Assembly: GCF_000025525.1 (NCBI RefSeq)
Contig: NC_013887.1
Location: 1,498,729-1,562,728, forward strand
Length of the DNA stretch: 64,000 bases
Source: Methanocaldococcus sp. FS406-22
Lineage (GTDB): Archaea; AGJL01; Methanococci; Methanococcales; Methanocaldococcaceae
Direction: 5' to 3'
Under the pieces are notes generated by a model. The model saw nothing but the letters and a program-made list of their open reading frames with translations. It made no database searches and was not told the DNA's origin. Numbering within the stretch: the stretch's first letter is position 1; every line of letters begins with the position of its first letter. Position numbers and translations under genes: made by a program. Below are positions 8,395 through 52,932 of this stretch, in pieces.

Positions 8395-8833
8395 GAACAA
8401 AATATTTATATATGAGTTTGTCGATATTTTTTGATTGAGATGTTTTTAGGTGTTTATTATATTGTTGTGTTTGTCTCGTTGAATAGGCTTGGAATCTGAT
8501 AAGGGTAATAATTATTGTTTATTATCTTGTTTAGAGGATTTAAATTTAATTTCTAATGGTCTGTTGGTTTAATCATTTGGAATATTTAGGTTTATTAAAT
8601 TATTTAGATTTTTAGAAGTTAAGATTAGATAGTAAGTCAAATAAAATTTCTCCAACTAATAAGTTAAATCTTCAAATTTAGAAAGATAAGAATACTCAAT
8701 TTAACTAAAAGAGAAAGATTTAAATATCAGGGGGTTTATAAATAAAGACAGTTATCTATACTTAGAAAAATATAGTGTCGAAAAGTATATATATTAGAAG
8801 AATAATAAAAAATAGGTTGAGAATGATTGCCCT
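8395..8833 (+). promoter_or_regulatory. CRISPR array 1 leader
   Basis: About 440 gene-free bases directly before the first repeat. It is homologous over about 400 bases to the leader of array 2 (15290-15694): shared words include GGAATATTTAGGTT, AAGAATACTCAATTT, AGATTTAAATATCAG and the last bases GATGATTGCCCT or GAATGATTGCCCT before the repeat. CGAAAAGTATATATATTA at 8779-8796 looks like BRE plus TATA, placing the transcript start about 20 bases before the first repeat. Confidence 0.85.
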
Positions 8834-10241
8834 GTTAAAATAAGACCGATTCGGTATGGAAACCTTTTAATTTCTCCATCAACTCTTCTCCACATTCTTG
8901 TTAAAATAAGACCGATTCGGTATGGAAACTGTTATCCCTCAATCCCAATATCTGGACAAAGGAGTATATAAGTTAAAATAAGACCGATTCGGTATGGAAA
9001 CGAGTTCATAGGACCATGAGGGGGGCAACTCCTTGGGCAGTTAAAATAAGACCGATTCGGTATGGAAACTGTATATCATAATTACAATTCCAATAATCAC
9101 AGATGAAATTAGGTTAAAATAAGACCGATTCGGTATGGAAACTTTCACTCAATAAACTATCTATCTGTATTGCAATCTCCATATCATCGTTAAAATAAGA
9201 CCGATTCGGTATGGAAACCTACTTCTTAACCTTGAGCTGAAGCTTCTATGTCTGGTTAAAATAAGACCGATTCGGTATGGAAACACGATTGTGTGTAATG
9301 AACTAAATTGCAATTACAACAAGTTAAAATAAGACCGATTCGGTATGGAAACACATACTCTAAGAGATTCTCTAAGTCATTGTGATAGTTAAAATAAGAC
9401 CGATTCGGTATGGAAACATTTTCACACAATATAAGCAGTTCTTTCATTTCTTGTTAAAATAAGACCGATTCGGTATGGAAACGTTTTTACATCGATACAA
9501 GTAAGGTCTGAATTATCGTTAAAATAAGACCGATTCGGTATGGAAACTAAATCTTGTCAGCTCCTTTTAACTTTACATTTAAATCAGTAGTTAAAATAAG
9601 ACCGATTCGGTATGGAAACTCCACTTCTTTCTTAACAGTAATAGAAGGTTTAAGTTAAAATAAGACCGATTCGGTATGGAAACCTCCTTTGTCATTTATT
9701 ACTCTAATTGTTCCTTTATGGTGTTAAAATAAGACCGATTCGGTATGGAAACAAAAAAACAGATTACATCGTTCAAGAAATCATCAAATCTTAGTTAAAA
9801 TAAGACCGATTCGGTATGGAAACTATTATTATGATGATAAATACACAATAAACTTGGACAGCTCGTTAAAATAAGACCGATTCGGTATGGAAACTTTTGT
9901 TGAAACTCAACAACACTTAAATATTTTGGTCTGTTAAAATAAGACCGATTCGGTATGGAAACCTGCCAATGCCTATGCCTCAAATACCTATGCCACAGAG
10001 TTAAAATAAGACCGATTCGGTATGGAAACGTATCAATGACGACTCTCATTTCTCCTTCTTCTGCAGTTGCTGTTAAAATAAGACCGATTCGGTATGGAAA
10101 CATATTATTAGTTTTTGCCTTTGGTGGTTTAAAATTAGTTAAAATCAGACCTCTTAGAGGATGGAAACCTGGTAAATGCTTTTCTATAAACTTTATGATG
10201 TCTACAAATTGTTAAAATCAGACCTCTTGGAGGATGGAAAT
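8834..10241 (+). CRISPR. CRISPR array 1: 21 repeats, 20 spacers, chimeric
   Basis: Nineteen 30-base repeats beginning GTTAAAATAAGACC, with a CCGATTCGG palindrome and ending ATGGAAAC, start at 8834, 8900, 8972, 9040, 9113, 9189, 9255, 9323, 9388, 9453, 9518, 9590, 9654, 9723, 9794, 9865, 9933, 10000 and 10072. They appear identical. Spacers are 34 to 46 bases. The last two repeats (10138-10168 and 10211-10241) are a different 31-base type beginning GTTAAAATCAGACC with a CCTCTTAGAGG palindrome (second copy has TTGGAGG and ends GGAAAT), the type used by array 2. The ATGGAAAC end would be the crRNA 5' handle. No cas gene lies in the window, so Cas proteins must act in trans. Confidence 0.98.
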
Positions 10242-15289: not shown

Positions 15290-15694
15290 TTAAGGTTGAG
15301 ATTATTGTAGTAGTTTATTGTAGTGTTGTGGTTGTCTCGTTGGATGTGTTTGAAATTTAATAAAGGTAATAATTATTTAGTATTTGTTAATTTAGAGGGT
15401 TTTTATTTGATTTCTAAGGGTTTGTAAGTTTGATTATTTGGAATATTTAGGTTCATTAAATTATTTAGATTTTTAAAAATTAAGATTGAATAGTAAGTTA
15501 AATGGGATTCCTCTAACTAATAAGTTAAATTTTCAAATTTAGAAAAATAAGAATACTCAATTTGATTAAAAGGGAAAGATTTAAATATCAGAAGGTTTAT
15601 AAATAAAAGGTGTCATCTATACTTGAAAAAATATGGTTCCGAAAAGCTTAAATATTAGAAGAGTGATTAAAATTATATTGTCGATGATTGCCCT
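15290..15694 (+). promoter_or_regulatory. CRISPR array 2 leader
   Basis: Gene-free AT-rich DNA ending GATGATTGCCCT directly before the first repeat, homologous to the array 1 leader over its whole length with scattered substitutions. CGAAAAGCTTAAATATTA at 15640-15657 corresponds position for position to the array 1 promoter-like box. Confidence 0.85.
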
Positions 15695-16071
15695 GTTAAA
15701 ATCAGACCTCTTAGAGGATGGAAACATGTAGTGATAAAGAAAGTCCATGACAAAGACGTTATCAAGTTAAAATCAGACCTCTTAGAGGATGGAAACTTTC
15801 TGACAAGTTAGCAAGTATCGGGAGTAAGTCCATGGTTAAAATCAGACCTCTTAGAGGATGGAAACACACACTACTAAACTTGTTTATATCTGTTGTAAGT
15901 GTTAAAAATAGTTAAAATCAGACCTCTTGGAGGATGGAAACTTAGTTGTAATATAATATTTTTCAATGTTGCAATTGTAGTTAAAATCAGACCTCTTGGA
16001 GGATGGAAACTAAAATAACAGATGATTTAACTAAAGTAGTAAATGAAAGTTAAAATCAGACCTCTTAGAGG
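15695..16071 (+). CRISPR. CRISPR array 2: six repeats, five spacers
   Basis: 31-base repeats beginning GTTAAAATCAGACC, with a CCTCTTAGAGG palindrome and ending ATGGAAAC, start at 15695, 15766, 15835, 15911, 15980 and 16049. The fourth and fifth carry TTGGAGG in place of TTAGAGG. The sixth (16049-16071) is cut after the palindrome and lacks the ATGGAAAC end, a typical degenerate leader-distal terminus. Spacers are 38 to 45 bases. Same orientation as array 1 and about 5.4 kb from its end. Confidence 0.97.
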
Positions 16072-17801
<1,730 letters not shown>

Positions 17802-48674: not shown

Positions 48675-49199
48675 TTGAATATGAAGGAGATTTTTCAAAT
48701 ATTTTCTTTGATGTATTTGTTATTTTTATTTATTGGATTCCTAATCATTTCAAAATTTGATATCTCCTTATCTTTAGTATTTTTCTTTCCATGCATTTTC
48801 TGGATATGTTGGGCAAAAATAAAAAGAGAAACATGGGATATACCAAATAGAGAAAATAGGCTAATTCCTTTAATCTTTACTTTAGTTTATTTGTCAATGT
48901 TGGTAATATTTTGGAAAAATATCTTTATAATAATTTTCTTGGTTAATGTTTTTGTAATTTTAATAATCACAAAATTTTGGAAAATAAGTATGCACAATTA
49001 TGGGTTATCTGCTATGGCTTATCTCATATATGCTTTCACAAACGATATTTGGCTATCTGTTCTATATTTAACATTAGTTATTATTACTGGCTATGCAAGA
49101 ATATATTTAAAGAAACATACATTTTCTCAAGTTATCGCTGGAACCATATTGGGAATTTTAGTTAATTACATTTTATTAAACCTTATTTGGGTGAAATAA
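48675..49199 (+). CDS. PAP2-superfamily membrane phosphatase
   Basis: 174 residues, about six helices. [20 protein letters not shown] and [19 protein letters not shown] match the SGH and R-x5-HxxxD regions of PAP2 lipid phosphatases, though the last Asp is Gln (HTFSQ), so catalysis may be altered. TTG 48675 fits GGTGA at 48665-48669 (the previous stop); ATG 48681 is the alternative. The final TAA overlaps the displaced tyrA start copy at 49199. Confidence 0.7.
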
Positions 49200-49297
49200 T
49201 GAAAAATAAAAATCTAACAATGAAACTTTTAAAAAAGTTTCATCAAAATTAACAAATCATAATGAGGGGTATTTATGAAAAATAAAAATCTAACAAT
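49199..49297 (+). repeat. Hairpin module flanked by a 23-bp duplication of the tyrA start
   Basis: ATGAAAAATAAAAATCTAAC plus AAT occurs at 49199-49221 and again, identically, at 49275-49297, where it is the tyrA start. The 53 bases between begin with ATGAAACTTTT/AAAAGTTTCAT (11 perfect pairs, 49220-49243) followed by CATCAAAATTA. The first copy has its own GGTGA site but runs to a stop. The same hairpin plus CATCAAAA recurs at 52235 beside another gene-end duplication. Confidence 0.7.
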
Positions 49298-50615
49298 CTC
49301 AATTATTGGAGGGACTGACGGTTTAGGAAAGTGGTTTGCAAGGTATTTAAAAAATAGAGGATTTAGGATAATAGTTACTGGAAGAGATATTGAGAAGGGA
49401 AAAAATGTTGAGAGAGAGTTAGGAGTTGAATTTTTAAATAACAATGTTGAAGCTGCTAAAAAAGGAGATATTGTCATTGTAGCAGTGCCTATAAATGTTA
49501 CAGAGAGGGTTATAAAAGAGGTAGCCCCTCATGTTAGAGAAGGATGTTTATTAATGGACATAACCTCAATTAAGGAGATTCCTGCAAAGACTATGGAGGA
49601 GAATGTTAAAGAGGGAGTAACTGTTATTCCAACCCACCCAATGTTTGGACCTTCAACCCCTTCTTTGTTGAGGCAGGTTGTTATTCTCACACCGTCTGAG
49701 AAACATAAAAATACTGAGTGGTTTAAGAAAGTTTATAATTTTTTAAAGAGAGAAGGGGCTAAGGTTATAGTTATCCCTCCAGAGAAGCATGATAAAATTA
49801 TGGGGGTTGTTCAAGGTTTAACTCACTTTGCATTCATTTCTTTAGGGGCAACATTAAAAGAACTCAATGTTGATATAAAAGAGTCGAGGAAGTTTGCCTC
49901 CCCAATATACGAGTTGATGATTTCCATTATTGGAAGAATTATAGGGCAGAATCCTTATCTATATGCGGACATCCAAATGTTTAATCCAAGGATAAGAGAG
50001 ATTCATGAAGCTTTTATAAATCAATGTAAGGAAATTAGTGAAATTGTCAAAAATAAAGATAGGGAAGGTTTTGTTAAGATAATGAAAGAAGCTGCAAAGC
50101 ATTTTGGTAGTGAAGCAAAGAGAGGAGCTTATTATTCAGATAAAGCTGTCTTTGCATTAACCTCTGAAATTGAAAAGCTGAATAAGCTCATTGGTAAAGA
50201 GATAGCTGTAAAAAATATAAATTCAAATAACATTCATTTCGGAGTTTTAAAGGATATTGAGGACGATTATTTAATATTAGATAAAAATGGCAAAGAGCAG
50301 AGGTTCAATATTTTAAGGGTTGAGGTATTTTCTGGAGAGGAGTTAAAAGAACTAAAAAAGAAACACTTAGAGAGAAAATATATAGATGTGTCTGTTCTAT
50401 TTAAAAAAGATGTAGATGTGAGAGTTATTTTAGATTTATTAAAAAAGGTGTTTGACATTGAGATAATTGATGTTTATGAGGGAGATAAAATAGAAGAGGG
50501 ATATAAAAGTATAACATTTAGAATTTATGGATACAGTAAGGATGAGCTAAAAAATATAGAAAAAGAATTTTTAAATATAGTTAAAAATATTGGTGGAAAA
50601 GAAAGATTCAAGTAG
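49275..50615 (+). CDS. tyrA: Prephenate dehydrogenase-like protein
   Basis: 446 residues. ISIIGGTDGLGKWFARYLKN is the NADP Rossmann motif; then PTHPMFGPSTPSLLRQ, QGLTHFAFISLGATL and a helical dimer domain near residue 280. Long C-terminal part (about residues 300-446) resembles a regulatory, ACT-like domain. Tyrosine synthesis from prephenate. GGGG precedes ATG 49275. A displaced copy of its first 23 bases lies 76 bases upstream. Confidence 0.88.
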   Translation: MKNKNLTISIIGGTDGLGKWFARYLKNRGFRIIVTGRDIEKGKNVERELGVEFLNNNVEAAKKGDIVIVAVPINVTERVIKEVAPHVREGCLLMDITSIKEIPAKTMEENVKEGVTVIPTHPMFGPSTPSLLRQVVILTPSEKHKNTEWFKKVYNFLKREGAKVIVIPPEKHDKIMGVVQGLTHFAFISLGATLKELNVDIKESRKFASPIYELMISIIGRIIGQNPYLYADIQMFNPRIREIHEAFINQCKEISEIVKNKDREGFVKIMKEAAKHFGSEAKRGAYYSDKAVFALTSEIEKLNKLIGKEIAVKNINSNNIHFGVLKDIEDDYLILDKNGKEQRFNILRVEVFSGEELKELKKKHLERKYIDVSVLFKKDVDVRVILDLLKKVFDIEIIDVYEGDKIEEGYKSITFRIYGYSKDELKNIEKEFLNIVKNIGGKERFK

Positions 50616-50617
50616 TT

Positions 50618-51652
50618 TTATGGTTTTAAGTAAAATAGATGACTCTTACATTTGCAATCAGAACATCCAAAGTTTTCTACAAAATCAAATTTTTTTATAA
50701 ATTCATTTGCAACCTCACACTCAACTTTTTCATTTGTAATAAAAATTTCCTCAACTTTTCCAAATTTGAGGAGGTAATCAATATGCCAATGCATCTTTTT
50801 GTCATCTTTTAAATGCCTCTCTATCCTATTTTTTAAATTAACTGAATTTCCAAAGGCAGAACCAACATAGAAATAATACCCCTTCTTAAAAAATCTTTCT
50901 GTTTTTCCAAACTTTATTTTTTTGCCCTCTTTTAATCTGATTTTTAAGATATAAGTTCCTTTTTCATTTGGAATGTTGTTTTTTGAAACCTTTCTAAAAT
51001 TGAATTTTTTTAATATATTTTCAAAATGTTTAATTTTTTCATAGTAAGGGCATTTTTCTCTTATTTCTTCAAAGCATTTATCACATTTTGGTTTTGGAGA
51101 GCAAATCTCTCTTCCAAAAACTACTAATAAATTATTTATTACTTTCCAATATTTTTTTGGTAGCTTTTTTCTTAATTCAAACTCTGTCTCTTCTGGAGTT
51201 TCTGTATCAACGATTTCCCATCTATTGCAGATTCTATGCACGTGGGTATCTACACAAATTCCATCCTTATTAAAAGCTAATGTTATAACTAAATTAGCTG
51301 TTTTCCTTCCAACTCCTGGGAGTTTTAACAACTCCTCTAAAGAGTCTGGAACTCTGCCATTATAATTCTCTTTTAAAATCTTAGCTAATTTTTTTAGATT
51401 CTTAGCTTTGTTTTTATAAAATCCAGCTGGATATATTAGATTAGATAATTTTTCCTCATCTATGTTTAATAAATCATCTACATCTTTAATTTCTTTAAAC
51501 AGCCTCTTAGAAACCTCTTCAGTTACTTCATCCTTTGTTCTTGCACTTATTATTGTTGAAACTAAAACCTTAAAAGGGTCTCTGTCTTTAGCTATTTCTG
51601 TAACTACTGCATTTTTGTTTAATTTTTTTAGCAGTATCTCTATCAGCTCCAT
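50618..51652 (-). CDS. nth: Endonuclease III fused to a DUF123 domain
   Basis: 344 residues. N-terminal ~210: HhH-GPD glycosylase/AP lyase ([16 protein letters not shown] with helix-hairpin-helix, then [12 protein letters not shown]; catalytic Lys and Asp) and a 4Fe-4S motif C-X5-C-X2-C-X7-C ([18 protein letters not shown]). C-terminal ~120: DUF123/GIY-YIG-like ([41 protein letters not shown]). Excises oxidised pyrimidines. The fusion is known in methanococci. ATG 51652 is preferred to one 9 bases upstream. Confidence 0.9.
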
Positions 51653-51735
51653 AGATACCACAAAAATAGTTTATTATTTTATTATTCAAAGAATTTTAAT
51701 TAAATAAAATAAAAAAGATTATTTATTCTCTTTTT

Positions 51736-52116
51736 TTATTCTCTTTTTTCAGCTGCAACTATAAGTAACATTCCAATTAAATCTCCTTTCTTCACTTCTC
51801 CATCAAACCCACATGCAAACATTGCCATATCAACTTCTCTCTCAACACTTATAGGCATTGGCACTTCCTCCCCAACAGCTACAACATGTCCAACTCTATG
51901 CCTACCGTAAGGACAAATTAGCAAAACGGACATTGGAGGGATTTTAATCTTCTTAATTCTTATTGGCTTTATATCCCCCTGCTTAAATTCCATATCCTCT
52001 TCAGCAACTATTGGCTCAATTTTTGCTTCATTTTTAATTATTAAATCACACTTTACTTCTTCTTCTTTAATCTTCTTTTCTATTTTAGTCATTCTTCCAA
52101 GTATCCTGAATACCAT
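51736..52116 (-). CDS. DUF22 family protein
   Basis: 126 residues. KIKIPPMSVLLICPYGRHRV, GHVVAVGEEVPMPI and DGEVKKGDLIGMLLIV are DUF22 features; the lipoyl/barrel-sandwich-like end suggests ligand binding. Function unknown. GGTGGTG precedes ATG 52116. Lies just downstream of the atpD duplication. Confidence 0.75.
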   Translation of the reverse strand: MVFRILGRMTKIEKKIKEEEVKCDLIIKNEAKIEPIVAEEDMEFKQGDIKPIRIKKIKIPPMSVLLICPYGRHRVGHVVAVGEEVPMPISVEREVDMAMFACGFDGEVKKGDLIGMLLIVAAEKRE

Positions 52117-52160
52117 AAACACCACCAAAAAATAAAGATATTTATGGTTTATTTATTCAG

Positions 52161-52351
52161 TTATACTGCTTCTTCCTCGGCCTCTCTCTTTTCGATTCTT
52201 GATTTAATTAACTTCAACCTGAAGAAGTTCCCCCTGCAACTTTTAGAAAAAGTTGCATCAAAAATTATTTATAAGTTTTTATTATACTGCTTCTCCCTCT
52301 GCTTCCCTCTTTTCGATTCTGGACTTAATCAATTTCAATCTGAAGAAGTTC
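52161..52351 (-). repeat. Duplicated atpD 3' end around a hairpin module
   Basis: 52282-52351 is the true 3' end of atpD (last 23 codons plus stop). 52161-52230 is a second copy, 61 of 70 bases identical, still readable as [21 protein letters not shown] and stop. Eight of nine differences are synonymous; the ninth makes E for G. Between them: TGCAACTTTT/AAAAGTTGCA (10 pairs, loop AGA, 52235-52257) then TCAAAAATTATTTATAAG. The same arrangement (copy, hairpin, CATCAAAA, copy) occurs at 49199. Confidence 0.78.
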
Positions 52352-52932
52352 TCTCTCTCCATCTCGTCCAATCTCATGGAGATGTATTTCTTGAGAGATT
52401 TTAATCTTGGAATGATAACATATTCTAAAGCGTTGACTCTTCTCTTTGTGGTTATAATCTCTTCAGCTAAGAGTTTGATTGATGTCTCTATTTCTGCCAA
52501 TTCAGTTATTAATTCCAAAGCTTCTTCAAACTTCTTAGCCGCTTCATCTAACTTTGAGCTAACTCCGTAAGGAGAGTAACCTCTTTCACCAACCTTTCTT
52601 CTAACGTTGTATATCTCAAAAGTAGGAACAGTAACACCCATAATATTCTTAGTATCCATATCTACCTCTAATTTGTCATTCTTTGCAGCTAAGGAAGCTT
52701 CTTTAACAGCTAAAGTTCCCATAACTGTTTGAGCCATTATTAAATCTTTGTATGCCTCAGCTAACTTTGCCTCAACTTTCTCTCTTAAATCTGAAGCTTG
52801 CTCTATAATTTGGAAGAATTCCATAATTAAAGCATCTCTTTTCTGCTTAAGTAATTTATGCCCCTTTTCTGCCAATTTAATTTTATTTTTTAATTTTAAT
52901 AATTCCATTCTTGTTGGATTCACTCTCTGCAT
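52282..52932 (-). CDS. atpD: A1AO-type ATP synthase subunit D
   Basis: 216 residues: coiled-coil central-stalk subunit ([40 protein letters not shown]). Couples rotation of the membrane rotor to the A3B3 head. The C-terminal 23 codons have a diverged duplicate downstream. Other atp subunits are not in the window. Confidence 0.94.

Follow-up and report, generated by a model that had tools for sequence, protein, structure and literature searches.

hp1, a dispersed palindromic element associated with duplicated gene edges in Methanocaldococcus and other archaea

Duplicated gene edges at the tyrA and atpD loci

The window analyzed here is a stretch of 64,000 nucleotides from Methanocaldococcus sp. 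FS406-22 (NC_013887.1, positions 1,498,729 to 1,562,728 of the forward strand), in which one end of each of two genes, tyrA and atpD, is present twice, with a short hairpin, which we name hp1, lying between the copies. An original prediction, made from the letters of this stretch, had proposed that the two loci share a hairpin module between duplicated gene edges, and this was confirmed: the shared hp1 pattern has 2 matches in the window as against 0.00 expected (100 shuffles). A local direct-repeat scan of the whole 64 kb recovered the arrays of clustered regularly interspaced short palindromic repeats (CRISPR), the tyrA and atpD loci, and four weaker pairs (71-81% identity; D5-D8). The tyrA and atpD loci are the strongest two non-CRISPR local duplications of the window and both contain hp1. 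Their features are as follows, with X denoting the intact copy of the gene edge and X' the displaced one:

49173..49221, + strand: tyrA X', the first of the two start-region copies, displaced; exact match to the intact copy at 49199-49221; its sequence overlaps the upstream gene's end
49222..49248, + strand: hp1 at tyrA, 27 nt; GAAACTTTTAAAAAAGTTTC hairpin, then the tail ATCAAAA
49249..49297, + strand: tyrA X, intact start-region copy, which has a ribosome-binding site of its own and runs on into the gene body
49275..50615, + strand: tyrA open reading frame (prephenate dehydrogenase), 446 aa, intact
52161..52235, + strand: atpD X', displaced truncated 3'-end copy, 85% identical to X; inner breakpoint directly after ...GAAGAAGTTCCCCCT
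52236..52263, + strand: hp1 at atpD, GC variant, 28 nt; GCAACTTTTAGAAAAAGTTGC, then ATCAAAA
52264..52281, + strand: spacer from hp1 to the stop codon of the intact atpD; part of it can be aligned (by eye) with the left flank, and it is possibly a decayed duplicated flank
52282..52356, + strand: atpD X, intact 3'-end copy; the gene itself is on the minus strand
52282..52932, - strand: atpD open reading frame (A-type ATP synthase subunit D), 216 aa, intact

The copies at tyrA share an exact 23-bp repeat (49199-49221 and 49275-49297), as predicted for the first 23 bases of the gene, but are alignable further upstream, over 49 bp at 78% identity. Since this similarity continues upstream of the ATG, the sharp edge at the start codon is not the true end of the duplication, and exact start- or stop-codon edges were rejected as the mechanism. 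The predicted duplication of the last 70 bases of atpD (52161-52351) is likewise real, although its extent is 75 bp at 85% identity, reaching 52356. Thus, the proposed insertion at a gene edge holds in that the edge is duplicated, but the duplication does not break off precisely at either codon: a sequence motif, described below, sets the inner breakpoint, and the outer end is variable.

The empty sites in relatives that the prediction had called for are present at tyrA, atpD, a tRNA cluster and hypD (genomes and loci are cited by our own G and L labels). At tyrA the empty alleles of G005, G008, G009 and G013 have the upstream gene running directly into a single start, while G000, G007 and G012 are filled and G006 retains a remnant. 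The atpD gene is empty, with one end, in the same four genomes, and filled at the same place in G000, G003, G007, G011 and G012, as well as in G020, which belongs to another family; in G012 its X' is joined to the original downstream flank, as seen in the uninserted G008, G009 and G013. The tRNA-Pro/Tyr cluster is filled only in G008, G009 and G013, the first two of which have lost most of hp1, and is empty in G000, G005, G007 and G012. Finally, hypD is filled in G003 and empty in the near-identical G011; in the latter, TTTCATCAAAA, identical to the hp1 tail, stands precisely where the segment that G003 has in duplicate reaches its outer end. As a separate observation, the insertion at a tight gene junction in G011 (L089) leaves each neighbor with a copy of the edge that they had shared; the two genes, which almost overlap in G000 and G007, are thereby set apart.

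hp1 is a dispersed family of archaeal hairpins

hp1 consists of a hairpin and a one-sided tail, G[N]AACTTTT..AAAAGTT[N']C-ATCAAAA, of 27-28 nt, and takes the form GAAACTTTT..AAAAGTTTC-ATCAAAA or GCAAC..GTTGC-ATCAAAA at the two loci. Searches with this pattern, allowing up to two mismatches, recovered it in 19 of 31 Methanococcales genomes, with up to 20 copies each, whereas a reversed-pattern control on these genomes returned zero counts except for 2 in one genome. For the stem pair that the search pattern did not fix, the two bases are complementary in 240 copies out of 251, where 177 would be expected, and the unconstrained tail positions read AA in 236 of these copies. An exact scan of 84,980 genomes, for which less than one match is expected by an estimate from base composition, recovered 114 stretches; nearly all of the 80 listed are archaeal, and the archaeal groups among the matches listed are Methanocaldococcus, Methanothermococcus, Methanovirga, Altiarchaeota and, above all, DPANN. 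Among 2.9 million viral contigs there was a single exact match, of the A variant and without a duplication, and none for the G and C variants.

The ends of hp1 are asymmetric, with the tail on one side only, and lack the terminal inverted repeats and fixed short target duplication of a miniature inverted-repeat transposable element (MITE). The hp1 inserts span ~30-250 bp and are composed of hairpins, with no integrase, cargo or open reading frame between the duplicated copies. Of the 9 G000 copies of a companion palindrome, hp2 (GGATGCAT..ATGCCTC), 7 are situated between duplications of this kind, several of them in the absence of hp1. Certain long forms (L142, L064, L114 and L037 in G007, G012 and G000) contain an alternating array of other hairpins within the hp1 loop, and in L005 and L009 (G008, G009) a 3' fragment of tRNA-Arg is flanked on both sides by hp1-type hairpins, beside an intact tRNA-Arg and other palindromes. 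In G026 (L047-L050), paralogous surface-type proteins with Asn-rich repeats are encoded by genes with tandem hp1 arrays at their 3' ends, and these ends differ between the paralogs; the arrays might allow C-terminal variation. Rfam covariance models gave no match above the gathering score in 8 loci, long forms included, and the hp1 core sequence was not found in the literature searched.

Duplications, their hosts and the target motif

A strong duplication, defined as a score of 18 or more in the local alignment of left and right flanks, is associated with 60 of 119 Methanococcales hp1 copies, as opposed to 14 of 357 control positions, and in most cases the left copy stops precisely where the hairpin has its first base. 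Thus, the core of the original prediction, a small dispersed hairpin at gene edges with the gene kept whole by a duplicated end, is upheld. The duplications vary in length from 26 to ~100 bp and also occur outside Methanococcales (L219, L227, L255, L258, L294); the exact 32-bp copy of L294 (32/32) and the near-exact 42-bp one of L229, cases from Pacearchaeota and Methanovirga, abut hp1 on both sides.

The protein-gene hosts are ordinary housekeeping genes; named from their open reading frame sequences with no family search, they include tyrA, atpD, argF, hypD, leuD, truA, bioA, ribosomal S15 and SMC, among others, and they are affected at both 3' and 5' ends and in both orientations. Such a range bears on whether the unit X'-hp1 is itself a selected functional RNA or DNA site (e.g. 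a decoy or a 3' processing element), with duplication as its purpose rather than a by-product. The constancy of the hp1 sequence, the conservation of its positions across families and the maintenance of X' in the likeness of X by concerted evolution are in line with this proposal. However, the targets are unrelated genes, in both orientations and sometimes at their 5' ends, X' is degraded at many loci (L088, L108), and G008 and G009 lost most of hp1 at the locus that they share; hence we regard it as very improbable.

Hosts also include genes for tRNA-Val, Ala, Cys, Met, Gly, Pro, Arg and Ile, among others, with the truncated copy beginning at the T-loop, and CRISPR repeats at three array ends in G024. 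The CRISPR arrays of the window itself lie at 8821-10240, with a change of repeat type near 10127, and at 15684-16078, with a degenerate final repeat. In the Methanococcales, the tRNA targets with their T-loop breakpoint, gene restoration and partial far-side copies are what would be expected if X'-hp1 and X were scars of attachment sites, i.e. the ends of tyrosine-recombinase elements that restored the gene end and whose cargo was later deleted, which is how the case of Caldiarchaeum tRNA-Thr has been explained (PMC3293823). We consider this unlikely: no larger cargo or convincing long-range duplication was seen among the 119 copies in the available flanks (often only 1.5 kb, at most a few kb), the inserts are hairpin modules only, and a single hairpin serves tRNA genes, protein genes and CRISPR repeats alike.

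Examination of the left flank over 261 copies revealed a conserved motif, T(-7) Y Y M A A N, immediately ahead of the element. It is found at the same place in the intact copy of 71 duplicated loci, and therefore belongs to the target. The motif marks a fixed inner breakpoint, whereas the outer end varies. The T-loop of tRNAs (TTCRAAN) fits it, which partly explains the tRNA hotspot. Mismatches between X and X' increase near the junction (96/426 at -6 to -1 versus 32/284 at -10 to -7); the junction-proximal bases of X' shift toward the hp1 tail, with a G in the intact copy at position -4 becoming an A in X' in 15 of 18 cases.

A fixed inner end with a 7-nt motif, along with the 32- and 42-bp duplications adjoining hp1 on both sides, could also result from conventional transposition by a nuclease or transposase that cuts one strand at a specific sequence and the other at varying positions. 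This would produce long, variable target-site duplications, and selection against gene-breaking insertions would produce the bias for gene edges. The Yersinia YPAL/RU-2 elements, with variable duplications of 3-26 bp, offer a precedent (PMC2229807). Profile searches of the 31 Methanococcales genomes are, however, at odds with the candidate enzymes. The Y1 (HUH) transposase (PF01797) is found in only 5 of the 31 and is missing from the hp1-rich G005, G006, G007, G010, G012, G024 and G026; the reverse transcriptase (PF00078) that a retroelement of the target-primed reverse transcription type would use is found in 1 of 31; and the zinc-ribbon domain of TnpB has no match in four hp1-bearing genomes (G006, G010, G021 and G026). 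All three were rejected as drivers. Likewise, hp1 was rejected as the end of a resident IS605-type element, as there is no hp1-type hairpin at L171, where G000 carries its intact Y1 transposase gene. Further, we know of no DNA transposase that makes variable duplications of 26-100 bp. We therefore see transposition of this kind as a possible but rather doubtful explanation.

Divergence of the duplicated ends

In the coding loci X and X' differ mainly by synonymous changes, with pooled values of S=165 over 411 synonymous sites and N=152 over 1683 nonsynonymous sites, and for the atpD gene of G007 there are 12 synonymous and 0 nonsynonymous changes. The atpD genes of G003 and G011 (L145 and L146) differ by 2 synonymous changes in 150 body codons but by 7 in the 22 codons of X; the duplicated end is ~7.5% diverged between loci that are otherwise ~99% identical, and several of the changes are present in both X and X'. 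Given an end far more diverged than the body, with changes common to both copies, the pattern means concerted evolution combined with either import of diverged ends or a locally raised mutation rate. In the argF gene of G007, X' is 1 base away from its relative G000, while X is nearer to the filled alleles of other species; in the atpD gene of G000 the direction is apparently reversed.

These patterns raise the prospect of homing or drive, whereby filled alleles would spread because a nuclease cuts empty ones at the breakpoint while a recoded X resists it; in one form of this proposal hp1 and the adjacent X' would act as an RNA guide. The synonymous recoding agrees with such a process, as does the argF gene of G007, with an X' like the native ends and an X like other filled alleles. 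The same is true of insertions that recur, to the nucleotide, in lineages far apart (atpD in G000/G007/G012, G003/G011 and G020; argF in G007, G011 and G016), and the architecture is that seen in fungal mitochondria (PMC3630166). Against this, there is no nuclease in or beside the inserts and no consistent PAM-like (protospacer-adjacent motif) flank by eye, and the argF and atpD signals are small, with the direction at atpD of G000 looking reversed. Moreover, X equals X' at some loci (tyrA 23/23, L294 32/32), where a homing nuclease would cut its own allele. RNA-guided self-targeting was rejected on the absence of a consistent PAM by eye and the identity of some X and X', and we hold homing as a whole to be improbable.

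A proposed model of insertion with re-copying of the gene edge

The resemblance of the tail to the target motif, the presence of the tail at the outer boundary in hypD and the shift of X' junction bases toward the tail favor two template switches. We accordingly propose that hp1 is a non-autonomous mobile palindromic element akin to MITEs and repetitive extragenic palindromic (REP) elements, whose insertion after T-Y-Y-M-A-A-N re-copies 26-100 bp of the gene edge, probably because synthesis switches template at TCAAA-like motifs, a proposal that we consider equally apt to prove right or wrong. The family itself, its target motif, the fixed and variable ends, the empty and filled alleles and the intact genes are observed; the steps, the enzyme and the direction of transfer are what we infer. 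A nick or stalled 3' end would arise after the motif and be extended on hp1, helped by the similar motif ahead of hp1 copies; the hp1 tail (TCAAAA) would then re-anneal at a similar A-rich site outside the gene edge, and synthesis would return through the edge into the gene. As a result the old edge would stay with the old flank as the relic X', and the gene body would be joined to a fresh full edge, X. Subsequently, X and X' would recombine, and filled alleles would probably move between species by homologous recombination.

Several observations weigh against this proposal. The expectation of flanking repeats at other hp1 copies held for those with a strong duplication, but about half of the copies are without a detectable one; some of these show weak remnants by eye, apparently decayed. 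Many DPANN copies lie in tRNA introns or open frames without a duplication. The outer boundary resembles the tail more than expected (mean 5.12 versus 4.63 matches, permutation p=0.0002), but five tandem arrays with an upstream hp1 drive much of this excess, leaving a small one without them; hence, microhomology at the outer boundary was rejected as a general rule, being weak except in hypD and the arrays. The empty hypD allele of G011 could instead have arisen by a deletion that left the tail behind as a scar. The loci are also not independent of one another in phylogeny, and no enzyme among those profiled (Y1 transposase, TnpB and reverse transcriptase in the 31 genomes) follows hp1. In view of the weak outer-boundary test, we regard the template-switching mechanism as evenly balanced at best; our confidence in the phenomenon itself is well higher.

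tRNA introns and DPANN copies

ARAGORN searches allowing introns placed hp1 inside tRNA genes in 13 of 84 tested copies from the wide scan, mainly in DPANN; others adjoin mature tRNA ends or lie within long open frames (e.g. L291, Pacearchaeota). In L220, L231, L237, L265 and others, from Micrarchaeota and other DPANN, hp1 constitutes most or all of an anticodon-loop tRNA intron. Consequently, hairpins inserted recently may account for some of the tRNA introns of DPANN. An intron-bearing tRNA-Arg with hp1 also occurs in a record labelled Bacteroidetes (L284), a metagenome-assembled contig that is possibly misbinned archaeal DNA.

Relation to known elements and significance

hp1 resembles the REP/REPIN-RAYT elements in being a small hairpin with a one-sided unpaired foot (TTTTGAT on the other strand), a conserved core, a covarying stem and module clusters. 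It differs from REP-RAYT and IS200/IS605 in that the Y1 transposase is absent from most hp1-rich genomes and in its association with the 26-100 bp duplications, whereas IS200/IS605 insertion is not known to entail a target duplication. YPAL/RU-2 shares with hp1 a palindromic structure, empty and filled sites and variable target duplications, but is 168 bp long and bacterial, has far shorter duplications, and gene-end preservation is not reported for it in PMC2229807. The Rickettsia palindromic elements are tolerated as insertions in genes, comparable to the hp1 in the long open frame of L291, but are different elements of 105-146 bp (PMC2229807). The mORF hybrids of fungal mitochondria (Allomyces atp6; Glomus atp6, atp9, cox2 and nad3) are also insertions at gene ends that displace the native end and bring in a new one, and their copies have diverged mostly without effect on the protein sequence (PMC3630166); unlike hp1, they carry a homing endonuclease frame of hundreds of bp. 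Integrative elements of tRNA genes (SSV/pNOB8 type; Caldiarchaeum tRNA-Thr) yield the same order of partial tRNA, element and restored tRNA (PMC3293823), but hp1 is without integrase or cargo and also targets protein genes and CRISPR repeats.

M. jannaschii is already on record as having short, dispersed palindromic repeats, of which some are inside coding genes (Suyama et al. 2005, cited in PMC2229807). As characterized in that citing account, they are like hp1 in being short, palindromic and dispersed in Methanocaldococcus, and may or may not be the same repeats. The earlier remark that no named family was known for the module is to be qualified accordingly. Suyama, Lathe and Bork are said to have defined MJRE groups in 2005, and reportedly described neither a duplication of gene edges nor a target motif, nor any occurrence in other species. 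What appears to be new is the gene-end duplication, the target motif and the archaea-wide spread, palindromic repeats of M. jannaschii being already known.

The movement of small palindromic repeats without a visible transposase is a general question on which hp1 bears. Its copies carry recognizable footprints, namely the target motif, an inner end that is fixed, an outer one that varies, and empty alleles, making the mechanism testable in culturable methanogens. The broadest form of our proposal is that minimal mobile hairpins across archaea enter at a motif and re-copy the gene edge, with filled alleles, at the strongest, homing into empty ones by way of a recoded end, as a drive-like rescue with no encoded nuclease; we advance it as a speculation that is more apt to fail. 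Features that annotation passes over, such as fragments of tRNAs, odd duplications of gene ends and gene termini that change fast, may be due to hp1 insertions, which link them to DPANN tRNA introns. hp1 appears to insert into essential genes without destroying them, and if its entry is indeed coupled to re-copying of the edge, insertion into such genes would be harmless.

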